Shown piece by piece: positions 12,893 through 25,499 of a stretch of 43,625 nucleotides of DNA (its first letter is position 1; every line of letters starts with the position of its first letter). Source of the DNA: Nitrospirota bacterium. Lineage in GTDB: Bacteria > Nitrospirota > Nitrospiria > Nitrospirales > Nitrospiraceae. The notes beneath the pieces are model-generated. The model was not told the origin of the DNA and did not search any database. It was given only the letters and a program-made list of their open reading frames with translations. Made by a program: the position numbers and the translations under genes. The stretch lies in the NCBI GenBank assembly GCA_020027965.1, contig JAHRHE010000016.1, forward strand, positions 1 through 43,625, read 5' to 3'.

Positions 12893-13435
12893 TTGGGGCA
12901 CGGAAGGGCAGGAGGACCGGGAGCGATCGGCTGGAGGCTGGCCCTCAGCCTCGCGGGCGCCGTGCTCGGGTCCGGCGGCTCCTTTCCTGGCGTTGCCGTC
13001 GCGATGCACGAGGCCGATCACCGGTTTGCCGTCGAAGGTCATGTGTGCGGGCCTGACGGGCAGCCGGTTGCCGATGCGCAGGTATTCGTCAAGGATCAGC
13101 GCGATCAGCGGGTGTCCGGGACGACTGTGTACACGGACCGCCGCGGGCGCTACAAAGCGGTTCTTCACCTCCATAATGACAATCGGGGCGATCCGATCCT
13201 GGTCACCGCTGGCGACAAGGAACAGCGGATCACCGCGCAGTTCGACGCGAAGGATCATGAGACCGAACGGAAGGCCGTCGTGCATTTCGGAGCAGGTTGC
13301 GAATCAGCCGGCGGTCCGGAGCCCTGGATGTATGGCGTCGGGATCGGCGTGCTCGCGGTGGCGGTCTTTGCGGGTGCACGGCTGATGCGGAGGCAGCGGC
13401 GGTCACAGGTCAGGGGTAAAGGGCAGCGCAAATAG
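12893..13435 (+). CDS. Secreted membrane-anchored protein with carboxypeptidase-regulatory-like domain
   Basis: A 180-aa protein. An N-terminal signal-type helix (WRLALSLAGAVLGSGG) is followed by a single beta-sandwich domain. Its motifs are typical of carboxypeptidase-regulatory-like/CNA-B folds: V-E-G-H-V-C-G-P-D-G-Q-P-V-A-D-A-Q-V-F-V, then T-D-R-R-G-R-Y-K. A C-terminal membrane helix (YGVGIGVLAVAVFAGARL) with a basic end suggests anchoring with the domain outside. The start is uncertain: TTG at 12893 keeps the signal, whereas the first ATG (13004) would remove it. It lies upstream of the respiratory cluster but is separated from it by a strong terminator. Confidence 0.72.
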   Translation: MGHGRAGGPGAIGWRLALSLAGAVLGSGGSFPGVAVAMHEADHRFAVEGHVCGPDGQPVADAQVFVKDQRDQRVSGTTVYTDRRGRYKAVLHLHNDNRGDPILVTAGDKEQRITAQFDAKDHETERKAVVHFGAGCESAGGPEPWMYGVGIGVLAVAVFAGARLMRRQRRSQVRGKGQRK

Positions 13436-13721: not shown

Positions 13722-14339
13722 ATGACACGCATGAAATGGGTCAAGGCGGCTCTCCTGATCAGCATGGCGGGCGCAATCGTCAGTGTCACGGGGTGTGAGG
13801 CAGGCGAGGGGCCGATCGTCGCGCCGCCGGACCCGCCACCCGAGTATGCAGACAAACACATGCCGGCCGGTTGGTGGGCGGATGAGAAGATCATCGAAGA
13901 GGGGAAGCAGATTTTCATCGGTGCCAAGAACATCGACGTCAACTGTGCCAGTTGCCACGGCAAGGACGGCAAACCGGTCAAGGCCGGGGCGCGGGACTTC
14001 CGGAACGCGGAGCGCATGAAGCTGTACTCCGACGCGGTCTGGTTCTGGCGGATCTCGGAGGGCGTGAAAGACACCAAGATGAAAGCGTGGAAGACCAAAC
14101 TGACCGAAGAAGACCGGTGGAAGGTGATGGCGTTCGAGCGGACCTTCGGGTTAAAGGGGATGGAGTACAACGTCGCGACGAAGAACTGGGTGCCGGTGGG
14201 AACGGCGGGTGCGGCGCCGGCGGCTGGCGCCGGGACGGCTCCAGGAGGCGCCGCGACTAAGGGCAAGGCGGCGCCCGCGAGCCCGGCTGCTCCGAAGGGT
14301 GGAGTGGCCCCGGCGGCCGGCAAGAAGTCCGGGACCTGA
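13722..14339 (+). CDS. Lipoprotein monoheme cytochrome c
   Basis: A 205-aa electron carrier, outside the cytoplasmic membrane. The signal ends in a lipobox (S-V-T-G-C25), so it should be lipid-anchored. One heme site is C75-A-S-C78-H79, followed by G-K-D-G-K-P and an F-W-R-I-S-E-G-V-K-D helix; the M-K-A-W segment may supply the distal Met ligand. The last ~45 residues are a low-complexity Ala/Pro/Gly/Lys tail of unclear purpose. The ATG at 13722 gives a proper signal peptide; the frame is open upstream. First gene of the respiratory cluster, 40 bp before the first bd-like gene. Confidence 0.87.
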   Translation: MTRMKWVKAALLISMAGAIVSVTGCEAGEGPIVAPPDPPPEYADKHMPAGWWADEKIIEEGKQIFIGAKNIDVNCASCHGKDGKPVKAGARDFRNAERMKLYSDAVWFWRISEGVKDTKMKAWKTKLTEEDRWKVMAFERTFGLKGMEYNVATKNWVPVGTAGAAPAAGAGTAPGGAATKGKAAPASPAAPKGGVAPAAGKKSGT

Positions 14340-14379
14340 AGATGCCGGGGTGATGAGACCGGAGGGGCGACGAGACACT

Positions 14380-16122
14380 ATGAAAACCTGGCAACGTAGT
14401 CTGCTTGTGACACTCGGTCTGGTGGCGGCGTTCGGGACTGCAGCCTATGCCCAGACTCCGAGCGCGCCGGTTGCCCAGTTTCCGTACACGGGAAACCGGA
14501 CCGCCGTATGGATCGTCGCCCAACTCCATATCCTGTTCGCCGCGTTCATTCTGGGGGCTCCGATCTTCGTCGTGATCTCCGAGTGGCTGGGGCACCGGAA
14601 ACAGGACCCTCGCTACGACCGCCTGGCGAAAGAGGTGACGAAGGTCACGGTCATCCTGTACAGCATGACCGCGCTCACGGGCGGGCTGTTCATCTTCGTG
14701 TTGCTGGCCACCTACCCTCAATTCACCACCTGGCTGATCAACCACTTCTTCCTGATCTTCGCGGTCATTTACCCGCTCCTGTTCATCGCCGAGACGATCG
14801 TGCTGTACCTCTATTTCTACACCTGGGACTCCTGGAAGGGTGAACAGAAAGCGCGCCACATCGCGCTGGGAGTCCTGCTCAATCTCATCGGGACCGTGAC
14901 CCTGTTCGTAATCGACGGGCCCACCTCGTTCATGAATACCCCGGCCAGGGCTGCGGAGGGCTTGTCCCTGGTCGAATACATCCAGACCGCGTCCCTGTGG
15001 GACAAGATCTACAACTACAGTTGGATGCCCCTCAACCTGCACAGGCTGGTGGGCAATGTGACCTTCGGGGGGTTCATCGCCGGCCTGATCGCGGCCTACA
15101 TGTACATGGGGGCCGCGACCGACGAAGAGCGCTCCTACTACGACTGGATGGGATTCGTCGGGAATCTGATCGGGGTCGGCGCGCTGCTCTTTCTGCCCTT
15201 CATGGGCTACCTGCTGGCGTTCGAGCTGTGCGACTACGATGCCTCCATCTGCCCCTACATGATGGCCGACCAGCTCTCGATGTTCTTTGAGATGCAAGGC
15301 GCCATGGTGGGGCTGATCTTCCTGGCCAGCAACTATTATATCTGGCTCAGCATGAAGCGAATCCGGGGGCTGGAACACATCCGCATGTCGCTCGCCACGC
15401 TGGTCCTCATGGTGAGCATCCCACCCGTGTTCATGCTGGTCTGGACCCTCTTCCCGATCCCCGACCTCATGGCGCTTGTCGTGCCGGCCGCGTACATCGC
15501 AGCGTTCTTGCTCCTCGCCAGGTTCACCCCGTGGACGGTCTCCTCCCAGACCATGGTCAAAGTTGCCTTTCTGATGGTGATCATTGGGAACGCGATCTGG
15601 ATGACCCCGCACGCCTTTGTCGCCACCCAAGCGCTGGCTCCGGAGGACGGGTCCTTGAGCCTTCCCCACGGGGAGCTGGCCCTGGGATCGATCACGCTGT
15701 CCTTCGGCGATTTAGCCCTGATGCCGGCCAAGAACGCCGCGGCGTTCACGCTGGTATTCGTGACGGTCGTCAACTACATCCTGTACAACCGGGCGATCCG
15801 GCGCGGCACGATCGTCTGGGGCAAGATTGATTTCGTCTCCCAGTTCGTGCTGATCTTTCTGGCGTTCAGCGCCATTTGGACCATGGGTCTCATGGGATCG
15901 GTGCGGTCGCTGGTGCGCAAGTATTTCCATACGTATAACCTCTTCTACGATTTCACGTCCGAGTCCTTCACCCCCACGCTGTCCTATGCCGCCTGGTGGA
16001 TCACCGCGATTACGCTGGGGTTCTACATCGTGGTGAGCTTCGCGATTCTCGTCACCCTGCGTGCGACCGAGGCCAAGGCGCACGCGGCGGAGCGGAAACC
16101 CGTTCCGGCCGGGGCCAAGTAG
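14380..16122 (+). CDS. Cytochrome bd-like oxidase subunit I homolog (first copy)
   Basis: A 580-aa integral-membrane protein with about 14 helices. Its N-terminus resembles a signal peptide (MKTWQRSLLVTLGLVAAF, then AYAQT), unusual for CydA. The bd family is indicated by the buried H50 in A-Q-L-H-I-L, E138 in I-A-E-T-I-V-L-Y-L-Y and H221 in P-L-N-L-H-R-L-V-G-N, all conserved in the second copy at 20039. Length and helix count exceed those of E. coli CydA, and no cydB is present. Nitrospira species are known to carry such divergent bd-like proteins; whether this one reduces O2 or handles quinol/cytochrome c electrons is unproven. A GGAGGGG site lies 12 bases upstream. Confidence 0.85.
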   Translation: MKTWQRSLLVTLGLVAAFGTAAYAQTPSAPVAQFPYTGNRTAVWIVAQLHILFAAFILGAPIFVVISEWLGHRKQDPRYDRLAKEVTKVTVILYSMTALTGGLFIFVLLATYPQFTTWLINHFFLIFAVIYPLLFIAETIVLYLYFYTWDSWKGEQKARHIALGVLLNLIGTVTLFVIDGPTSFMNTPARAAEGLSLVEYIQTASLWDKIYNYSWMPLNLHRLVGNVTFGGFIAGLIAAYMYMGAATDEERSYYDWMGFVGNLIGVGALLFLPFMGYLLAFELCDYDASICPYMMADQLSMFFEMQGAMVGLIFLASNYYIWLSMKRIRGLEHIRMSLATLVLMVSIPPVFMLVWTLFPIPDLMALVVPAAYIAAFLLLARFTPWTVSSQTMVKVAFLMVIIGNAIWMTPHAFVATQALAPEDGSLSLPHGELALGSITLSFGDLALMPAKNAAAFTLVFVTVVNYILYNRAIRRGTIVWGKIDFVSQFVLIFLAFSAIWTMGLMGSVRSLVRKYFHTYNLFYDFTSESFTPTLSYAAWWITAITLGFYIVVSFAILVTLRATEAKAHAAERKPVPAGAK

Positions 16123-16134
16123 ACGGGGAGTCCC

Positions 16135-16959
16135 ATGGCTGAACAGCCGAGCCTGCTGAAGAGCATCATCAAGAAGGGTCTCGCCGGAGTGGTAGTCGGC
16201 GTCATCCTGGTCGTACTCGCCAAGGCGCTGGAATTCCCGCCCGTGTTCCAGACCATGTTCTTCATCTACGCGATGCTGGGCGCCGCGGTCTACGTGCTGC
16301 TGGATGCCCCTGCCGTCAAGCCGGTGGGCGGGGCCAAGGCCCTGATCGCGCTGATCGTGTTTTACGCGGTGATCTCGGGCGTGTATATCGGCGGTGCGTC
16401 GCTCCTGCCGCAGTACGACCCGCAAGATGAAAAAGGGAAGATCGAGAAATTGTTGAAGCCCAAGCGCGCGGCCACGGAGCAGGGGAAGGCGGAGGAGTTG
16501 CTGGCCCGCACTCAGGCGCTCGCCGAGAAGGCCGAGGCCCTCATGAAGCGCCTGCAGGCCGCGGGAGTCGGCGGGACCGGGGAGGCTCCTGGAGCCGGCG
16601 GCGCGAACGCGGCGACAGGGCCGGGAGCCGCGACCGGAGACATGGTGGCGATGGGGAAACAGCAGTGGGATCTTCAGGAATGCTACAACTGCCATAAGCT
16701 CGAAGGCAAAGGCGGCAAGAAGCGCGGCCCCGAGCTGGACAACATCGGCAGCCTGATGACCCCGGAGCAACTCCGGCAGAAGGTGCTGGAGCCGCAGAGC
16801 TGGATGGCGGAAGGCTTCGAGAAGGAATACGAGAAGAAGAAGATGCCGAGCAAGTATCGAGAGCTGATGGAGGATAAGGAAGTCGACGCGCTGGTCGCGT
16901 TTCTGTCCACGCTCAAGAACCCTTCGGTGAACACACCTAAACCCATCCAGAAGAAGTAA
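16135..16959 (+). CDS. Membrane-anchored monoheme cytochrome c
   Basis: A 274-aa protein. Three N-terminal membrane helices (about residues 14-32, 38-56 and 66-88) are followed by a charged, coiled-coil-prone linker (KIEKLLKPKRAATEQGKAEE, then LLARTQALAEKAEALMKRL), a Gly/Ala hinge and a C-terminal cytochrome c domain with C183-Y-N-C186-H187. A likely distal Met lies in K-K-K-M-P-S-K-Y. The domain should face the periplasm and shuttle electrons between the membrane subunits. It begins 12 bp after the bd-like gene with a GGGGAG site, and its stop is one base from the Rieske start, so the genes are tightly coupled. Confidence 0.88.
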   Translation: MAEQPSLLKSIIKKGLAGVVVGVILVVLAKALEFPPVFQTMFFIYAMLGAAVYVLLDAPAVKPVGGAKALIALIVFYAVISGVYIGGASLLPQYDPQDEKGKIEKLLKPKRAATEQGKAEELLARTQALAEKAEALMKRLQAAGVGGTGEAPGAGGANAATGPGAATGDMVAMGKQQWDLQECYNCHKLEGKGGKKRGPELDNIGSLMTPEQLRQKVLEPQSWMAEGFEKEYEKKKMPSKYRELMEDKEVDALVAFLSTLKNPSVNTPKPIQKK

Positions 16960-16960
16960 C

Positions 16961-17902
16961 GTGCAGCCCAAGCTGAAGTCCAGAGTCAAGTGGGCCGACC
17001 GCGAGGTCGGCGAAGTGACCCGGGTCATCCTGGACCCCTTGTCGCGCGACGTCAGCCACATCGTGGTCGGTGGAAACGGCGTCGGGACCCAGGAGCGCCA
17101 GATCCCGGTCTCCGCGTTCCAATCGGTGACGGGGGACACGGTTCACCTCCGCGCCGCATCGAGCCAGATCGGCCAGTTTCCCGCCTTTCAGCGTGAGGCG
17201 TTCGTCACGATCCGCGAAGTGGAAATCGCGCATCTCGAGGATCACCTGGACGTGGAGCCGGGCGAGGTGCTGGTGCCGGTGCCCGAGCTGGAGCGCGACG
17301 TCAAGCGCCGGACCTTCTTCACAAACCTCACGCATGCGATCGGCGCGTTGCTGGCGCTGCCGCTGCTCTACCCGGTGCTCAGGTACGTGATGAAGCCCAT
17401 GTACGCGCCGTTCGACAACCGCTGGATCAAGATCGGTAACGTGAACAAGATCAAGACCGAGGATGTCGGCGTCCAGTTCAAGTTCAAGAAGCTGGTCAAG
17501 GAAGCGTTCATGCCTGAAGCCGAGGTCGATAAGAATGTCTGGATCCTGAAGGCCTCTCCCCCGGTGCTCGAACAGGTGTACAAGGGCAAGGATATGGAGT
17601 TCCGTGACTCCACGGGCCAGGTCGTGTGGGTCAACAAACGGGACTTTCCGTACGTCGTCTATTCCGGCAAGTGCCCGCACCTGGGCTGCGGTTACAAGTG
17701 GCGCAAGGTGCCCAAGCTCGGTCGTGAGATCTTCCTGTGTCCCTGTCACCTCAGCATCTACGATCCGAGCGGAAAGGTGCTGGACGGGCCGGCGCCACGG
17801 CCCCTGGACCCGCTCCCGATCCGGGTAGCGGCCAGCGGCGACATCGAGATCATCGACATGGAATACAAGGCGGGCGTCAAAGCCCAAGTCCGGATCGTCT
17901 GA
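16961..17902 (+). CDS. Rieske iron-sulfur protein with N-terminal PRC-barrel-like domain
   Basis: A 313-aa protein with GTG start. Residues 1-85 form a PRC-barrel-like beta domain (SRVKWADREVGEVTRVILDP, IVVGGN, RQIPVSAF). A single membrane helix follows at about 122-142 (AIGALLALPLLYPVL), then the Rieske domain: C238-P-H240-L-G-C243 and C260-P-C262-H263. C238, H240, C260 and H263 ligate the 2Fe-2S cluster, and C243-C262 would be the stabilising disulfide. In bc/b6f complexes this subunit takes the first electron from quinol. The PRC fusion on the cytoplasmic side is unusual. The stop overlaps the cytochrome b start (TGATG). Confidence 0.93.
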   Translation: MQPKLKSRVKWADREVGEVTRVILDPLSRDVSHIVVGGNGVGTQERQIPVSAFQSVTGDTVHLRAASSQIGQFPAFQREAFVTIREVEIAHLEDHLDVEPGEVLVPVPELERDVKRRTFFTNLTHAIGALLALPLLYPVLRYVMKPMYAPFDNRWIKIGNVNKIKTEDVGVQFKFKKLVKEAFMPEAEVDKNVWILKASPPVLEQVYKGKDMEFRDSTGQVVWVNKRDFPYVVYSGKCPHLGCGYKWRKVPKLGREIFLCPCHLSIYDPSGKVLDGPAPRPLDPLPIRVAASGDIEIIDMEYKAGVKAQVRIV

Positions 17903-18996
17903 TGAATAGCCAACCGTCCGCGCTCGAAAAAATCATCGCGTTCGTGGATGAGCGCGTTGGCCTGAAGACCATCCAGGCCAAGATGCTCAACGAGCCGGTG
18001 CCGGGCGGCTCCCGCTGGGCCTACGTCTTCGGGTCCTGCCTCCTCTTCATTTTCATCATGCAGGCGGTGACCGGGGTGCTCTTGATGTTTTATTACGTCC
18101 CGAGCGCGGATCATGCCTACGCGAGCACCCAGTACATCCTGCATGAGGTGGACTACGGATGGTTTATCCTGAGCTACCACTTCTGGGGCTCCTCCGCGAT
18201 GGTCGTCATGGTCTTCGCCCACATGTCGCAGGTGTTCCTGTGGGGTGCCTACAAGAAGCCGCGGGAGATGGTCTGGCTGATCGGTCTGGCCCTGTTCGGC
18301 CTCGTGATGGCGTTCGGATTTACCGGGTATCTCCTGCCGTGGGACCAGCGGGCCTATTGGGCGACCACGGTCGGTGTGGAGATCATGGACAAGACGCCGG
18401 TCGTCGGCGACTTTATCGCGCGCTTTTTGAAGGGCGGGCCGACCCCAGGCCAGATGACGCTCAGCCGGTTCTTCGTGATCCACGTGATGATTCTTCCGGC
18501 GGCGCTGATGGGCCTGGCCGGGTTGCACCTGTTCCTGTTCCGCAAGGCCGGCCCCGCCGGACCGTTCCGGGGAACGCCGGAGGAGTTGAAGGCCAAGACC
18601 GATTACTTCTTCCCCCGGCAGGTGTGGAAGGATATCGTGGCGATGGGGGCCGTGTTCGTCACGATCTGCAGCCTGGCCTTTATCGAACCGGTGGTGCTGC
18701 TCGAGGAGGCCACGCCGGACCCGGGCGACTATCACCCAGAACCGGAATGGTACTTCCTGTTCCTGTTTCAAATGCTTCGGTTGAAAATCTTCTCGGGTGA
18801 ATTCGGGCAGTTCGTGGCCGGGGTGGCCATTCCGAACGCCTTCCTATTATTCCTGGCCGCGCTGCCATTCATTGACCGCAACCCGGAGCGCAACATCTTC
18901 AAGCGGCCGATCGCACTCGTCGGTTGGCTGATCGTGATGACTGGGATCCTGGTCTTTACGGTGTCGGCGATCATTAATCGCGAGTTCCTAGATTAG
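17902..18996 (+). CDS. Cytochrome b (b6-type spacing, fused full length)
   Basis: A 364-aa membrane subunit that carries the two b hemes and the quinol sites of a bc-type complex. The first His pair (S-Y-H-F-W-G and F-A-H-M-S) has 13 intervening residues. The second pair (V-I-H-V-M and G-L-H-L-F) has 14, the cytochrome b6 value rather than the mitochondrial bc1 value. The Qo loop motif is P-E-W-Y, preceded by P-D-P-G-D-Y-H-P-E, and sits in the same chain, so b6 and subunit IV are fused. Translationally coupled to the Rieske gene by a one-base overlap. Together with it and the nearby cytochromes c this forms complex III. Confidence 0.95.
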   Translation: MNSQPSALEKIIAFVDERVGLKTIQAKMLNEPVPGGSRWAYVFGSCLLFIFIMQAVTGVLLMFYYVPSADHAYASTQYILHEVDYGWFILSYHFWGSSAMVVMVFAHMSQVFLWGAYKKPREMVWLIGLALFGLVMAFGFTGYLLPWDQRAYWATTVGVEIMDKTPVVGDFIARFLKGGPTPGQMTLSRFFVIHVMILPAALMGLAGLHLFLFRKAGPAGPFRGTPEELKAKTDYFFPRQVWKDIVAMGAVFVTICSLAFIEPVVLLEEATPDPGDYHPEPEWYFLFLFQMLRLKIFSGEFGQFVAGVAIPNAFLLFLAALPFIDRNPERNIFKRPIALVGWLIVMTGILVFTVSAIINREFLD

Positions 18997-19022
18997 CAGA
19001 AGTCGAGATCGGTGTAGAGAAG

Positions 19023-19934
19023 ATGGTTGACCAGCCGATGCAGATGTCATCCCTGAAGTTGGGCCTGGCCGTCGCGTGGCCGGCGTTCTGGACCGGCGTC
19101 CCGATCAAGATCGTGGTGGCTCTCCTCTTTCTGGCCCTGGGCGTGCCTCCATGGGAGATGCCTGGCCTGGCCTTGCTCCTGCTGCTCTCCATCCCGATTG
19201 ACATCTGGGCACTGGGCCTGAGCGCCCGCACGGTCTTTCTGGAGCGGCTGCGGTTGGACCCGCCCGAGTCCGTCGGGGTCACGCTCTGGTGGCAAGGGGC
19301 CTTGCTGAGCGCCGTGTACCTGCCTCTCTTCTATGAGATCGAGAGTGGGGTGATCGCCGGCGCCAAGGCGGTGGCGGGCCGGATCATGGAGTTCGAGTGG
19401 CTCAAGAGTCTGGGAGTGGCTGAGCGGATCAGCATCGAGCTGGTGCTGTGGGCGGGACCAGCCGTCCTGATGTTGCTGCTCCTGGCGTGCGGCTGGCTGT
19501 TTCTCTTCGGGCGGCTGATCGTCCGCAGGCAGGCGTCCGCGGCCAGGCCCTCCGACGCCTCCTACCAAACGCTGGTTCGCCGATTGGATCTGCTGCGGGT
19601 GCCGGCTGATCAACCCCTCGTGTTGACCGTACTCGTCGCGACCGGGGTGGTGCTCGTGTTGCTGTTCTGGGCGGCCATGCCGGTCACGACGCCTATTCCC
19701 CACGAATCCTACGTGAAGCCGCCGGAGAAGATCGCGCCGCCCATCAAGCCGGCTGAGAAGCTCCCAAAAATCGAAAAGCTGCTTGGCCAGGCTGAAACGG
19801 CCATGAAGGAGCTCGAGGCAAAAGGGACCAAGGGATCCAAAAGCAAGCAGAAAGACAAGGGTGCCGATAAGCCGGACGCGAAACCGGAGGCCGAAGGGGG
19901 CGGGCCCGGCCCGGCGGCTCCCGGCAAAGCCTGA
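19023..19934 (+). CDS. Membrane protein of unknown function in the respiratory cluster
   Basis: A 303-aa protein with about five membrane helices (residues 25-45, 47-66, 88-106, 140-162 and 197-217). A C-terminal extramembrane tail follows, rich in Pro, Lys and Glu, with a short coiled-coil-like stretch (LPKIEKLLGQAETAMKEL). No cofactor motif is visible: no CxxCH, no heme-ligand His pair. Its position between cytochrome b and the second bd-like gene suggests an assembly or structural subunit. The tail layout recalls that of the cytochrome at 16135. It starts 26 bp after cytochrome b. Confidence 0.75.
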   Translation: MVDQPMQMSSLKLGLAVAWPAFWTGVPIKIVVALLFLALGVPPWEMPGLALLLLLSIPIDIWALGLSARTVFLERLRLDPPESVGVTLWWQGALLSAVYLPLFYEIESGVIAGAKAVAGRIMEFEWLKSLGVAERISIELVLWAGPAVLMLLLLACGWLFLFGRLIVRRQASAARPSDASYQTLVRRLDLLRVPADQPLVLTVLVATGVVLVLLFWAAMPVTTPIPHESYVKPPEKIAPPIKPAEKLPKIEKLLGQAETAMKELEAKGTKGSKSKQKDKGADKPDAKPEAEGGGPGPAAPGKA

Positions 19935-20038
19935 AGGGTATAATGGCGCCGTCGCCGCTCTTGGCGACGAGATCCTTCTAGATTCAGAAGTTGATGGTTG
20001 CACAGATGAGCGCCTGTGCGCGGATGAGGAGACGTGCC

Positions 20039-21835
20039 ATGAACAACCATGGCGAACAGAGAGGGCGGATCGCCGGATTCCTGCGCGGACGAGTCTGGTC
20101 GCTGACTGGACTGGGCATCCTGATCGGCTTCCTCGGACTTCCCGCGCTCGGTCTGGCCGAGGAGGCGGCGACCGCCTCAGCCGCGGTCGCGTATCGCGAT
20201 ATTCCCCAGCTCGGGGGCAGCCGGAACATCATCTGGGTCGTCGCGCAGCTCCACCTGTTGCTGGGTGGCTTCGTGCTGGGCGTGCCGATCTTCGCGTGGG
20301 TCTGCGAGATCGTGGGATGGAAAACCGGCGAGAAGCGGTATGACAAGCTGGCCAAGGAGTTCACCAAGCTGCTCACCTCCTCCTACGCCACCACCGCGCT
20401 GTTCGGCGGGATTCTCCTGTTTTTGCTCATCGGGCTCTATCCGAAGTTGATGGCCTATCTGACGGACGTCTTCTTCCCGGCCTTCGTCCTGTACTGCGTC
20501 CTCTTCCTGGTGGAGACCGTGACGCTGTATCTCTACTGGTACGGCTGGGACGCGATGCCGGACGGGGGCCTGAAGGGACTGCATCTGTTCCTGGGCTTCC
20601 TGCTGAACGTCTTCGCCTTCTTCATCATGATCGTCCCGAACTCCTGGGCCACGTTCCAGGCCAGCCCCGTGGTGATCACGGAAGGCTCCAGTTTGGCCCG
20701 CGCCTGGGCCGCTACCTGGAATCCCACCTGGTGGCCGGTGAACGTCCACCGCCTGATCGCCAATGTGGTGCTGGGGGGGTTCATCTGCGGCGCGTATGCC
20801 GGCGTCCGGTATCTCATGGTCACGACGGCCGAAGAACGGAATCATTACGACTGGATGGGCTACGTGGGGAATTTCATCGGCGTCTTCGGCATGCTGCCGC
20901 TGCCGTTCGCCGGCTACTGGCTGATGCGGGAGGTGTACCAGTACAACCAGCAGATGGGCATCACGCTGATGGGCGGATTCCTCTCGTGGCTGTTCATCCT
21001 GCAGGCCATGCTGATCGGGGTGCTCTTTCTGGGCGCCAACTATTATTTCTGGCTGGGCATCACGTATCGAATTCCTGGGGCGGAAGTCAAATACCGAAGA
21101 CCCATCATGGCGATGCTGGTGATCCTGTTGCTCTGCCTCGGCGTCTGGATGACGCCCCACTCGCTCGTCGCCAGCCTGGAAGAGGCCCGGAAGCTGGGCG
21201 GCACGCACCATCCGCTGCTGGGCGTGTTCGGAGTGATGTCGGCCAAGATGACCGTGGCCAACCTCATGATCCTGGTGACGTTCATGAGCTTCATCATGTA
21301 CTGGCGCGCGGGCAAGCAGGAGACGGCCACCTGGGCCAAGGTGGCCAGGGCGGTGATGGGGGGCGTGCTGGGTGTGGCCGCGCTCGTCGTGATCGTGCTG
21401 GGCGTGTGGGGCTATTTCGTGCCGGCCATCACCCGGATCAACTACTTCTCGGTGGCTCAGGTGTTGATTGTCCTGTTCGTCCTGCTCACGATCACACCCC
21501 TGACGGCGGTCCTGCTGCGGAGCGCGAAGACCACCAGCGAGATGGTCTGGGGGCGCATGCCACCCCGGGCCGGGTACGCGCTGGTCCTGAATGCGGTCAT
21601 GGTCATTCTGCTGATGACCTTGATGGGCTACGCCCGCTCCTCGTCGCGGGTGCACTGGCATATCTACGGCGTGATGCGCGACTCTTCGCAGTATGCCTAC
21701 TCGCCGGCCCTGGGCTACGCCGCCGCATTCATGTCGCTGAATACGTTCCTGTTCTGCTTGATGGTCGCCTTTATCTTCTGGGTGGCGACGATGGGAGATA
21801 AGGGCAAGGCCTCTATACGGGGAGCTAAGAGCTGA
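20039..21835 (+). CDS. Cytochrome bd-like oxidase subunit I homolog (second copy)
   Basis: A 598-aa multi-span membrane protein homologous to the product of 14380. Shared landmarks: A-Q-L-H72-L-L, V-E159-T-V-T-L-Y-L-Y, P-V-N-V-H237-R-L-I-A-N and Y-D-W-M-G-Y-V-G-N-F-I-G-V. An N-terminal signal-like segment ends near G-L-A-E-E. It differs most in the loop after helix 8, where the first copy has a C-D-Y-D-A-S-I-C segment. The ATG at 20039 is preferred because GAGGAG lies eight bases upstream; the frame opens at 19991. The last codons and the stop lie in a dispersed AGCTGA repeat, so the C-terminus may have been altered by repeat insertion. Confidence 0.85.
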   Translation: MNNHGEQRGRIAGFLRGRVWSLTGLGILIGFLGLPALGLAEEAATASAAVAYRDIPQLGGSRNIIWVVAQLHLLLGGFVLGVPIFAWVCEIVGWKTGEKRYDKLAKEFTKLLTSSYATTALFGGILLFLLIGLYPKLMAYLTDVFFPAFVLYCVLFLVETVTLYLYWYGWDAMPDGGLKGLHLFLGFLLNVFAFFIMIVPNSWATFQASPVVITEGSSLARAWAATWNPTWWPVNVHRLIANVVLGGFICGAYAGVRYLMVTTAEERNHYDWMGYVGNFIGVFGMLPLPFAGYWLMREVYQYNQQMGITLMGGFLSWLFILQAMLIGVLFLGANYYFWLGITYRIPGAEVKYRRPIMAMLVILLLCLGVWMTPHSLVASLEEARKLGGTHHPLLGVFGVMSAKMTVANLMILVTFMSFIMYWRAGKQETATWAKVARAVMGGVLGVAALVVIVLGVWGYFVPAITRINYFSVAQVLIVLFVLLTITPLTAVLLRSAKTTSEMVWGRMPPRAGYALVLNAVMVILLMTLMGYARSSSRVHWHIYGVMRDSSQYAYSPALGYAAAFMSLNTFLFCLMVAFIFWVATMGDKGKASIRGAKS

Positions 21836-21856
21836 TAGCTGAGAGCTGAGGGCTGA
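21823..21856 (+). repeat. Dispersed AGCTGATAGCTGAGAGCTGA-type repeat
   Basis: Tandem AGCTGA-like units that overlap the end of the bd-like gene and supply its stop codon. Related to the inverted-orientation copy at 12331-12368. Confidence 0.65.
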
Positions 21857-21892
21857 AAGCCAAGGAGGCATCTCACCGTCAGTGGGAAGACT

Positions 21893-22489
21893 ATGAGCGA
21901 AGTGGCGTTGCTGCAGGTGATCGGCCTCTGCGTGGTCGGGATCGGGGTCGCGATCCTGCTGTTTATCAAGGCCCGCTTCCTTCGGGTGGTCGGGTTTGTG
22001 GTGATCGTGCTCGGGATCTTTGCGCTGATCGCGTTGGGCGTGCCCCAGATGGCATCGCTGCCGCCGGCGGAAGAGGTATTCGACGTGGCCAGCATCAAGA
22101 CTCCGGCCGATATGGCGGCGATCGGCCAGAAGATTTTCTTCAGCAAGGGCCAGTGCGCGCTCTGCCATTCGATCGGTCCGAGCGAGGCGGCTCGATGTCC
22201 CGATCTGAAGGGGATTGGCGCCAAGCTGACGAGGGAGTTCCTGTACGAAAGCCTGACGCAGCCGCAAGCGTATATCTACAAGGATTTCCGGCATGAGGGG
22301 CCGCCGAAGGACTATCCGGCCCGGATGCCCTATATCAACAAGAATCCGATCGGGCTCTCCAACAACGAGATCTTGTCCGTGATTGCGTTCCTGCAGCAGA
22401 TGAGCGGGGAGTCCATCACGGTCAGTCCGTCCGAGATCGTCCAGCCGGTGAAAACGGCGGCGGTGATGCAGGTCGCGCACGCCCGATAA
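21893..22489 (+). CDS. Membrane-anchored monoheme cytochrome c
   Basis: A 198-aa protein with two N-terminal membrane helices (about residues 5-25 and 31-50) and a cytochrome c domain. The heme site is C88-A-L-C91-H92 and a likely distal Met lies in Y-P-A-R-M-P-Y. An extra Cys follows the heme site (A-A-R-C-P-D-L-K). The lone heme and two-helix anchor resemble the cytochrome subunits of bc-type complexes, in which the heme accepts electrons from the Rieske head. It lies between the second bd-like gene and another cytochrome, on the same strand. Confidence 0.88.
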   Translation: MSEVALLQVIGLCVVGIGVAILLFIKARFLRVVGFVVIVLGIFALIALGVPQMASLPPAEEVFDVASIKTPADMAAIGQKIFFSKGQCALCHSIGPSEAARCPDLKGIGAKLTREFLYESLTQPQAYIYKDFRHEGPPKDYPARMPYINKNPIGLSNNEILSVIAFLQQMSGESITVSPSEIVQPVKTAAVMQVAHAR

Positions 22490-22563
22490 GGGCGCCGCGC
22501 CGGCCCGCGGCTGGGCCACGAGCCCGATGGCGGCCCGTGGCGCCGCAGGCAGTCGAAGAGGTC

Positions 22564-23286
22564 ATGAACATGAAAGGAAGCGTGCTCCTCAAGCCGATTC
22601 TCTTGCTGGTCGGCGTCTATCTGGTCCTGAAGTTCGTCCTGCCGTTATTTACCGCGCCCCTGCCTGCCAGCCTCATCTTCCTGTACCTGGCGCTGACGGC
22701 GGCGGGCATCATGATCTTTGAGACGCTGAGCGGGCAGTCCACCGAGGCGTTCTTTGGTCCTATCTTTGCTTTTCTGAGCGGGAAGGGACAGACGGGGCCG
22801 ATGAAGGCCGCTCGCCTTGCGGTGCTGATTCTCTTTCCCCTGCTCGTGGGGTGGCAGACCTATATCAGTACCGCTCCCAGTGATCAACCGCCGGCCGAAA
22901 ACCGCACCATCCATCCGGCCCCGCCCGGCGAGTTCGTGGGGCTCTCGAACCCGGTGCCGAACACGCCGGAGAATGTGATGGCCGGCAAAGGACTCTTTGC
23001 GGCCTTCTGCTCGCCGTGCCATGGGAAGTTCGACGGGAAGGGCCCAGCGGCAAAGGGCTTCAATCCTCCGCCGGCGGATTTTGTAGATTCGGGGACCATT
23101 GCCCAACTCCAGGAGTCGTATGTGTTCTGGAGGATTAAGAAAGGCGGGGTCGGACTGCCTGTCGAGGGGATGCCTTGGAAGTCGGCGATGCCGCGGTGGG
23201 AGGTTGAGCTGAAGGATGACCAGATCTGGAAGATTATTATGGGCGAGTACGACGGGGCGCACCAGAAGCCGCGCACGTGGGAATAG
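22564..23286 (+). CDS. Membrane-anchored monoheme cytochrome c
   Basis: A 240-aa protein with three N-terminal membrane helices (about residues 9-29, 34-52 and 84-101), then a periplasmic cytochrome c domain with C149-S-P-C152-H153 followed by G-K-F-D-G-K-G. The M-P-W-K-S-A-M-P-R-W block holds candidate distal Met ligands. ATG at 22564 or 22570 is preferred to the GTG at 22537, since AAGAGG lies just upstream. Another electron-transfer subunit of the cluster. Confidence 0.87.
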   Translation: MNMKGSVLLKPILLLVGVYLVLKFVLPLFTAPLPASLIFLYLALTAAGIMIFETLSGQSTEAFFGPIFAFLSGKGQTGPMKAARLAVLILFPLLVGWQTYISTAPSDQPPAENRTIHPAPPGEFVGLSNPVPNTPENVMAGKGLFAAFCSPCHGKFDGKGPAAKGFNPPPADFVDSGTIAQLQESYVFWRIKKGGVGLPVEGMPWKSAMPRWEVELKDDQIWKIIMGEYDGAHQKPRTWE

Positions 23287-23640
23287 GGGGGGAGCGGCCC
23301 GGTGGTCTGGCTGACCCGCCTGCTCGCGGAGCGCGCGCACAAGATCTATCGCTTCGGAAAGTGGTGGATGTGTGCTCGCTCGACGCGCCCAATAGGGGTC
23401 AGCCACGCCACCGGGCTTTTGGTGTAGCGGTGAAGGTGCTCGCTCGGGCAAGGGCGCGTCTTAGCGCGCCCGGGGTGGGCGGGTGAAAATGACGCGCGCA
23501 GTGAAGGCCAGCCCAGCCGCCCGCCCGCTGAAACAATAAGGTGGTTGGTGTGCCGGGTACCCGCTGTTCTTTGAGACGCAGCGGGTGATGTTGCGCGCAG
23601 TAGGAGGCAGGCTACCGGCCCTCTCTTTGAGAAAGGGTTT
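23287..23640. other. Intergenic stretch with large imperfect inverted repeat
   Basis: No gene supported. Arms at 23297-23317 and 23397-23418 (GCCCGGTGG..TGGCTGACCC and its complement, about two mismatches in 21) enclose about 80 bases. Further GC-rich palindromes follow around 23451-23475. This interrupts the otherwise compact respiratory cluster and may be an inserted small element, a structured leader of the next gene, or a terminator/processing signal. Confidence 0.5.
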
Positions 23641-24471
23641 ATGAAGACAACTCAAAAGGCCTCAGGGCATGTTGTGCATCTGGGCAGAATCCTCCTTGTG
23701 CTAAGCGTGCTCGCTCCGGGGTTTGGGTGGGCACAGGAGAGCGTGTCGGTGCGCGCTGGCCTGATCAAGGGACCGGTGCCGGGTGAGGATCCGACCGCCG
23801 CGGTCTGGAGCAGCGCGCCGGCCTCGGAGTTTCCGTTGTCTCCCCAGGTCCACTGGGCGACCCGGATCCTCGAAGCGACGGCCAAGTCCGTGAAGGTCCG
23901 TGGCCTGCATGACGGCCAGCAGGCCGCCATTCTGCTCGAGTATGAGGATCCGACCGAAGATCCCGATGACGCCGCCGCGTTGGAGTTCATGGTCGGGGAC
24001 AAGAAGGCGCACTTCGCGCACGGCCAGCCGATGGGCCTCGTGGAGGGTGGGCCGGTCAACATCTGGTATTGGAAGAACAAGACCGGCAAAGTACTGGACA
24101 TGAACGCCCAGGGGTTCGGCACGCTCACGGTCCAGGATCATCAGGATGTCAAAGGCAAGGGGGTCTATCAGAACGGCGTCTGGAAAGTCGTGTTCACCCG
24201 CGCCCTGTCGACGGCGCACCCCGAGCAGGACACGCAGATCAACCCCGGCGAATTCATCAACATCGCCTTTGCGATCTGGGACGGCAAGAAACTGGACAGT
24301 GGCGAACTCAAGGAGAAGGGCTCCCAGAAGGCGGTGTCGTCCTGGTGGTATTTCCGCGCAGACCCGCCGCCGGATTATTGGAGCTATCTGTATGCCGGGC
24401 TGGCTGTGGGACTTGCGGTGGGGCTGCAGTTCGTGATCATCCGGAAGCTGAAGAAAGGGGCGAGGGCATGA
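23641..24471 (+). CDS. Ethylbenzene-dehydrogenase/NXR-gamma-type heme b protein
   Basis: A 276-aa protein. A signal peptide (GRILLVLSVLAPGFGWAQ) is followed by a beta-sandwich domain of the ethylbenzene-dehydrogenase heme-binding (EB_dh) type: V-H-W-A-T-R, E-Y-E-D-P-T-E-D, D-M-N-A-Q-G-F-G-T-L-T, W-K-V-V-F-T-R-A-L and F-A-I-W-D-G. A C-terminal membrane helix closes the chain (YLYAGLAVGLAVGLQFVI). In type II DMSO-reductase-family enzymes, including nitrite oxidoreductase, such subunits carry a heme b and pass electrons outward. No catalytic alpha or beta subunit is nearby, so here it may serve the bd/bc-type complex. It overlaps the next gene by four bases (ATGA). Confidence 0.85.
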   Translation: MKTTQKASGHVVHLGRILLVLSVLAPGFGWAQESVSVRAGLIKGPVPGEDPTAAVWSSAPASEFPLSPQVHWATRILEATAKSVKVRGLHDGQQAAILLEYEDPTEDPDDAAALEFMVGDKKAHFAHGQPMGLVEGGPVNIWYWKNKTGKVLDMNAQGFGTLTVQDHQDVKGKGVYQNGVWKVVFTRALSTAHPEQDTQINPGEFINIAFAIWDGKKLDSGELKEKGSQKAVSSWWYFRADPPPDYWSYLYAGLAVGLAVGLQFVIIRKLKKGARA

Positions 24472-25499
24472 GCGGGGTCGCGAACCGGAGCGCTGGGCGA
24501 GGAGCTCGAAGACTGTGGCGGGGCGCCGCAATCGTTGGGATGTCGGCGGTCGTCTGGGCTGCAGGCTGCGCGCTCTTCCAGAGCGAGCAGATCTCGAAAG
24601 GCAAGACACTGTACGCGCACTATTGCATGCATTGCCACGGCGAGCACGGTCGACAGAACGAAGGGTACAACTGGTCTCAGATGGCCGACCCGCGTCCAAA
24701 AGACTTGTCGGCCAAGGAAGAGATGTCCACGTTCAAAGACGAAGAAATCTTCAACACGATCTCGCGCGACATGAAGGATACGACGCCTGAGGTGGGCGAC
24801 AAGATCGGCGACGATGAATTTGCCGTCCCCACGATGCCGACCTTCAAGTACACGCTGTCGGAGGAAGAGATCTGGGCCATCGTGGCCTACGTGAGGACCC
24901 TCCACGGCATGAAGCTCGAGTTCAACGCGGAAGGGAAAAAGAAGGAGCTGCAGGACCAGCTTTTGGCCGCCCAACAGGCGTACGACAGGGCCGACCAGGC
25001 CTTGAAGGCGGCCGAAAAAAACGCCGAGGCGGAGGCCGAAAAGAAGGGCGTGGATGTGGAGGAGTCCGCGACGGAGAAGGAGCAAGCGGCGCTGGCGGCC
25101 GCCAAGAAGGCTCTGGACAAGACCCAGGCTGCGCTGACCAGTTTCTCCACTCGTCCCAAGTTCGCCGTCATTCCACGGCCGGATCTGAAGACACCGCCGG
25201 CTGAGGCGCAGAAGCTGGTCGAGGTCGGTAAGCGCCTGTATCAGAACAAGTACGGCTGCAACGCGTGCCACCGCGTCGGCGACGCGGGCGGAGTGGTGGG
25301 TCCGGCGCTTGACCGCGCCGGATTTCGGCTGAATGCGACCTGGGTCTATCGGTGGATCAAGTATCCCCAGTCCATCAAGCCCGAGACACGCATGCCGAAT
25401 CTGGGCCTCAGCGATTCAGACGCCCGAGCGGTCACCCTCTACCTGGGTACCCTGCGCGCACCGAAGCCGGACACCTCCATCACGACCACCTCGAATTAG
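24468..25499 (+). CDS. Lipoprotein diheme cytochrome c with coiled-coil linker
   Basis: A 343-aa protein with two cytochrome c domains. The signal ends in a lipobox (W-A-A-G-C34). Heme 1 is C53-M-H-C56-H57 and heme 2 is C264-N-A-C267-H268, with Met candidates in P-T-M-P-T-F and T-R-M-P-N-L. Between them residues ~155-230 form a long Ala/Glu/Lys coiled coil (LAAQQAYDRADQALKAAEKN and following), unusual for a diheme cytochrome and likely a spacer or dimer rod. Coupled to the EB_dh-type gene by an ATGA overlap. Last gene of the cluster; a hairpin follows. Confidence 0.88.
   Translation: MSGVANRSAGRGARRLWRGAAIVGMSAVVWAAGCALFQSEQISKGKTLYAHYCMHCHGEHGRQNEGYNWSQMADPRPKDLSAKEEMSTFKDEEIFNTISRDMKDTTPEVGDKIGDDEFAVPTMPTFKYTLSEEEIWAIVAYVRTLHGMKLEFNAEGKKKELQDQLLAAQQAYDRADQALKAAEKNAEAEAEKKGVDVEESATEKEQAALAAAKKALDKTQAALTSFSTRPKFAVIPRPDLKTPPAEAQKLVEVGKRLYQNKYGCNACHRVGDAGGVVGPALDRAGFRLNATWVYRWIKYPQSIKPETRMPNLGLSDSDARAVTLYLGTLRAPKPDTSITTTSN

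Follow-up and report, generated by a model that had tools for sequence, protein, structure and literature searches.

The window analysed here is a 43,625-nucleotide stretch of contig C35 in a 3.6-Mb assembly (97 % complete) from a Nitrospirota bacterium. Positions 13722-25499 carry 11 consecutive genes, all on the + strand, in the order cycA, bd-like_1, cycB, Rieske, cytochrome b, unknown membrane protein, bd-like_2, cycC, cycD, EB_dh and cycE. Together with one upstream neighbor, the features are as follows:

12893..13435, + strand: carboxypeptidase-regulatory-like protein; a small gene just upstream, linked to the cluster by association only
13722..14339, + strand: cycA, c-type cytochrome with one heme, a probable lipoprotein; heads the conserved order
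14380..16122, + strand: bd-like_1, 580 aa, with a signal-like N-terminus and an N-terminal CydA domain
16135..16959, + strand: cycB, cytochrome c with one heme and three N-terminal hydrophobic segments
16961..17902, + strand: Rieske 2Fe-2S protein; a conserved N-terminal PRC-barrel-like domain of ~110 aa precedes the transmembrane helix
17902..18996, + strand: cytochrome b, undivided, with b6 and subunit IV in one 364-aa chain
19023..19934, + strand: unknown membrane protein, 303 aa, ~4-5 helices, the last of which is followed by a conserved TP(H)PHE motif
20039..21835, + strand: bd-like_2 (putatively NIDE0901-like), ~13 helices
21893..22489, + strand: cycC, cytochrome c with one heme, anchored in the membrane at its N-terminus; paralogous to the diheme cytochrome c in a module on contig C163
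22564..23286, + strand: cycD, cytochrome c with one heme and hydrophobic segments at its N-terminus; paralogous to a protein of the C163 module
23641..24471, + strand: EB_dh protein (alt_NxrC_1), a heme-b protein resembling type II DMSO-reductase gamma, with a signal and a C-terminal anchor
24468..25499, + strand: cycE, diheme cytochrome c, probable lipoprotein; 4-bp overlap with the preceding gene

Pfam and NCBIfam searches back every gene name save that of the 303-aa membrane protein, for which neither returned a match, and the gene inventory of a preliminary description of this DNA proved accurate: all 11 genes lie on the + strand where it had placed them, with matching domains. That description had also reported two bd-like proteins without cydB, and indeed no cydB occurs within the cluster, the one canonical cydAB pair of the genome lying on contig C220; its "fused cytochrome b" holds insofar as b6 and subunit IV are undivided, although no cytochrome c is joined to the chain. 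Genes overlap or are separated by short gaps throughout, except for a 354-bp gap (23286 to 23641) beyond which the last two genes, EB_dh and cycE, could form a separate transcript. The long minus-strand ORFs opposite the cluster genes were set aside as high-G+C artefacts. The carboxypeptidase-regulatory-like gene is found upstream in many loci and was not seen in others (e.g., L038 and L041).

The Rieske protein (PF00355, E 5.5e-8) carries the CPHLGC and CPCH motifs, whose C238/H240 and C260/H263 are invariant in 20 of 20 orthologs, and the cytochrome b (PF00033, 8.4e-51; PF00032, 1.7e-8) has its four heme histidines at 93/107 and 194/209 (the second pair with x14 spacing) and PEWY at 281. The pair is in these respects like the cytochrome bc1/b6f complex III, from which it differs in the PRC-like Rieske N-terminus and in the several separate cytochromes c that replace c1/f. 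Residues 1-110 of the Rieske protein (16961-17290) are conserved with a mean identity of 0.58, and their match to PF05239 (PRC) has an E of 2.9e-4, exactly at the cut-off; among the 20 orthologs the Rieske domain was found in all and the PRC match in nine. The ONR-linked Rieske protein of the same genome (a 165-aa frame) lacks this extension. A PRC-like N-terminal domain on a Rieske protein is apparently unreported: "PRC-barrel" and "Rieske" occur together in no paper of the open-access literature searched, although subscription papers fall mostly outside it and the evidence for novelty is therefore weak. The extension is also present in families outside the Nitrospirales; in two loci of a further family (L154 and L155), the extended Rieske gene adjoins a cytochrome b frame that runs on into a cytochrome c domain, and bd-like genes are absent. 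At another locus (L148), a second Rieske/cytochrome b pair sits beside a multiheme protein, an arrangement resembling the ONR cluster of N. moscoviensis.

Both bd-like proteins match Cyt_bd_oxida_I (PF01654), bd-like_1 with an E of 3.6e-21 over model positions 3-236 and bd-like_2 with 3.7e-19, and both cover only the N-terminal ~240 of its 418 positions; sequence matches to solved CydA proteins (bd-like_1 with 5doq_A, E 8e-12) span the same part. With the Pfam matches ending there, and by profile alignment to CydA, a counterpart of the Q-loop is absent from both proteins. When an AlphaFold model of bd-like_2 was compared with CydA structures by Foldseek (7ose_A, E 1.6e-5; 5doq_A, rmsd 3.2 A over 257 columns), its N-terminal half had, as modeled, the CydA fold, whereas the C-terminal half has a pLDDT mostly below 55 and its heme geometry is left uninterpreted. 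The pair is thus like canonical cytochrome bd (CydAB) in its N-terminal fold and in its counterparts of H19, E107, H186 and R448, but differs in having no Q-loop, no CydB, extra helices and replacements of E99 and E445.

Residues were mapped onto CydA in the E. coli sequence and numbering, anchored by the PDB matches. H19 corresponds to H50 in bd-like_1 and H72 in bd-like_2, E99 to Y131 and Y152, E107 to E138 and E159, and H186 to H221 and H237; toward the C-terminus, E445 corresponds to S510 and S534, R448 to R513 and R537, and W451 to F516 and W540, with an invariant histidine one residue further on (H517 and H541). The C-terminal mapping is the less certain: it depends on one short motif, and beyond the GRQPW region the alignment with CydA is weak; for bd-like_1 the segment was placed by profile alignment, a four-paralog MAFFT alignment having misplaced it. 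In bd-like_2, all 80 sequences compared keep H72, Y152, E159, H237, S534, R537, W540 and H541, as well as H374, H390, H391, M400 and M404, whereas the E107 counterpart of bd-like_1 is Gly in 10 of 59 orthologs; bd-like_2 is accordingly the likelier catalytic subunit and a candidate for O2 reduction. The conserved His and Glu residues that had been pointed out as possible heme sites do fall at heme positions in both proteins. Of the canonical ligand set of H19, H186, M393 and E445, H19 and H186 are kept, the E445 counterpart being Ser in 80 of 80 bd-like_2 and 58 of 59 bd-like_1 sequences. In structures of canonical enzymes, the two active-site hemes are ligated by one conserved His and one conserved Glu (PMC8951039). 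With Ser at the E445 position of both proteins, heme binding must differ from that of canonical cytochrome bd and, judging by the two replacements (E99 to Tyr and E445 to Ser), one or more of the active-site hemes must be bound otherwise than in CydA. A loop of bd-like_1, CDYDxxxCPYMM (15229-15276), has invariant Cys284, Cys291, Met294 and Met295, is absent from the paralogs and is a possible disulfide or metal site.

The cluster and its main interpretation have already been published. In N. moscoviensis, the corresponding region comprises CIII_1, bd-like_1, bd-like_2, alt_NxrC_1 and cytochromes c, with two cytochrome c genes between bd-like_2 and alt_NxrC_1; its genes are highly and coordinately expressed, and a III/IV supercomplex, perhaps also contacting NXR, was proposed (Mundinger et al., 2019; PMC6606698). 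The present locus has the same genes in the same order as that region (L031), proteins 41-88 % identical and the same proposed function; it belongs to a different species, and its PRC-like Rieske extension goes unmentioned alongside Rieske in the open-access literature searched. The role of bd-like_2 as a putative terminal oxidase was first proposed by Lucker et al. in 2010 (as cited in PMC6606698), and a 2025 comparison of Nitrospirales concluded that NIDE0901-like OR-N2 and OR-N1 CydA likely form a CydAA' terminal oxidase in most members of the order (PMC12342949). The same oxidase type probably uses cytochrome c, according to a proposal made for Nitrospinota (PMC10839748), as is supposed for the bd-like pair. 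The pair shares with the OR-N1/OR-N2 CydAA' oxidases of Nitrospirota and Nitrospinota the CydA N-terminal core, the missing Q-loop with extra helices, the two paired CydA paralogs and the lack of CydB (PMC12342949; PMC10839748), and synteny with N. defluvii and N. moscoviensis suggests that bd-like_2 is the NIDE0901-like OR-N2 and bd-like_1 its OR-N1 partner. Physical association and O2 reduction are proposals in the published work as well; what is added here is the residue comparison of the bd-like proteins, the PRC-like Rieske extension, a module paralogy and the cluster's occurrence in genomes that gave no NxrA match.

The reading preferred here, at a probability of roughly 0.66, is that the cluster is a core respiratory unit of the Nitrospirales, made up of complex III, a terminal oxidase of the OR-N (CydAA') type in which bd-like_1 pairs with bd-like_2, and cytochromes c dedicated to them. 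Periplasmic donors (nitrite via NXR) would deliver electrons to the anchored cytochromes c and the EB_dh heme b, from which they would pass to the hemes of bd-like_2, the putative site of O2 reduction. Through the Rieske protein and cytochrome b, this cytochrome c pool would exchange electrons with the quinone pool; the forward direction is possible, and in a reverse branch, electrons would be driven uphill by the pmf from cytochrome c through cytochrome b/Rieske to quinone, for NADH or ferredoxin. No COX1 domain match to a heme-copper oxidase was found across the whole assembly (97 % complete), and bd-type proteins are therefore the only terminal-oxidase candidates found there.

The bd-like proteins could instead be heme-b proteins for exchange between cytochrome c and quinone, an alternative route of reverse flow, and not O2 reductases at all; we consider this unlikely. 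Although the replacement of CydA E99 and E445 would suit such a role, the missing Q-loop and the genome without a heme-copper oxidase match argue against it, and an isoform with b hemes alone is reportedly active in archaea. Anammox bacteria and Nitrospina do possess paralogs of the bd-like_3/bd-like_4/alt_NxrC_2 type (PMC6606698; PMC3578206), and electron exchange of this kind has been suggested for the Nitrospina paralog (PMC3578206); nevertheless, canonical cytochrome bd is very weakly expressed in N. moscoviensis during nitrite oxidation (PMC6606698), which again argues against the exchange role.

The five cytochromes c of the proposed respiratory unit contain 1, 1, 1, 1 and 2 CxxCH motifs, six in total. 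Hydropathy fits membrane anchoring for three of them (16135, 21893 and 22564) and gives a single N-terminal hydrophobic stretch for the other two (13722 and 24468), in which lipobox-like motifs (VTGC and AAGC, respectively) were read by eye, in keeping with the three membrane and two lipoprotein cytochromes first described. The EB_dh protein scores 84.7 bits against PF09459 (E 1.3e-23), above the Pfam cut-off of 33.3, and 109.3 bits against TIGR03477 (E 1.6e-31), below the cut-off of 169.85; by these scores it is a relative, and not a curated member, of the type II DMSO-reductase gamma family. The stretch from bd-like_2 through cycC, cycD and EB_dh to cycE is paralogous to a module on contig C163 of the same genome (L006:9695-15923), where bd-like_4 (44 % identity) is accompanied by a diheme cytochrome, a homolog of cycD (33 %) and a protein of 586 aa with two heme-c domains fused to an EB_dh domain (alt_NxrC_2). 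The layout of bd-like, c, c and EB_dh/diheme genes is alike in both; EB_dh and diheme domains are fused on C163 and separate here, and the C163 module has no complex III. Given this paralogy, with the EB_dh protein corresponding to the C-terminus of the alt_NxrC_2-like protein, EB_dh and cycE look like a split version of alt_NxrC_2 that is here joined to bd-like_1 and complex III. Another bd-like gene lies near the C163 module (L006, 3806-5734).

A search with bd-like_2 matched 196 genome contigs, of which the best 80 are all from Nitrospirota, including Ca. Nitrospira defluvii (L030) and N. moscoviensis (L031), and the complete gene order is kept in 49 of the 50 loci with enough flank, those of N. 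moscoviensis and N. defluvii among them; the clustering is therefore not due to chance. All 61 related genomes have a bd-like_2 homolog; a distant homolog (~46 % identity in two cases) is all that three genomes from a fourth family contain, and these gave no NxrA match. The same gene order recurs in two genomes (G176 and G182; loci L150 and L151; 97-98 % complete) from families of the same class that lie outside the order, the gene for the unknown membrane protein being reduced or undetected in both, and neither genome has a real NxrA match. In the source genome, only the first 30 residues of NxrA were found, at the right end of contig C67 (L149); this start led us to reject the idea that the genome lacks NXR, and nxr is broken there by the assembly, as is usual at repeated nxr genes, and not evidently absent. 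As nxr is often lost at such breaks, and as four relatives of the same family as the source genome likewise gave no NxrA match, its absence from G176 and G182 is suggestive only, but with the cluster kept in two families without an NxrA match, the cluster is probably not specific to nitrite oxidation. These genomes also bear on the idea, put forward in PMC6606698, that the cluster serves mainly as a docking port for NXR with the EB_dh protein (alt_NxrC_1) as its anchor: kinship with the type II DMSO-reductase gamma subunit speaks for such an anchor, whereas retention of the cluster in G176 and G182, even allowing for the frequent loss of NXR from fragmented assemblies, makes docking as the main function quite improbable.

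At the sole broken locus (L059, in a MAG of chromosome level), the segment bd-like_2-cycC-cycD-EB_dh-cycE lies near 0.49 Mb and the segment cycA-bd-like_1-cycB-Rieske near 1.63 Mb; this could reflect a rearrangement or an assembly error, and it is the one case among 50 of the broken synteny in close relatives that the preliminary description had named as grounds for abandoning its proposal of one large complex linking quinol, cytochrome c and perhaps O2 or reverse flow. The joint function in that proposal fits the gene content and the proposals in the field (PMC6606698; PMC12342949), whereas its physical unity is putative, with halves 1.1 Mb apart in L059 and the internal 354-bp gap. Complex III and the bd-like oxidase may accordingly be separate enzymes that draw on a shared cytochrome c pool and are clustered for co-regulation, an alternative that deserves serious weight at somewhat less than even odds. 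Besides the split locus and the gap before the EB_dh gene, it can call upon the PRC-Rieske/cytochrome b pair without bd-like genes in another family (L154 and L155) and the bd-like_4 module without complex III on C163; the intact order in 49 of 50 loci and two outside families, the dedicated membrane-anchored cytochromes and the high, coordinated expression in N. moscoviensis (PMC6606698) favor a joint unit instead. A stronger version of the joint unit, in which PRC-Rieske/cytochrome b and the CydAA' oxidase would form one obligate quinol/cytochrome c/O2 supercomplex, older than and independent of nitrite oxidation, with the Rieske N-terminus acting in the cytoplasm for docking or regulation and bd-like_1 serving electron entry and not catalysis, is speculative and in our judgment doubtful.

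The cluster is real, strongly conserved and important to the organism. For Nitrospira, which account for much of the nitrite oxidation worldwide and mostly lack a normal heme-copper oxidase, the cluster is presumed to explain how O2 is reduced and electrons are pushed uphill. Testable points in this regard are the likelier activity of bd-like_2, as mapped by residues, the extended Rieske protein and the genomes that have the cluster but gave no NxrA match.

Lastly, the 303-aa membrane protein was modeled with a pLDDT of 82, yet a fold search with the model gave no PDB match, and comparison lent no support to its being a cytochrome-less copy of cycB. In the alignment, its motif reads TPHPHE(C/Y) in relatives and TPIPHE here.
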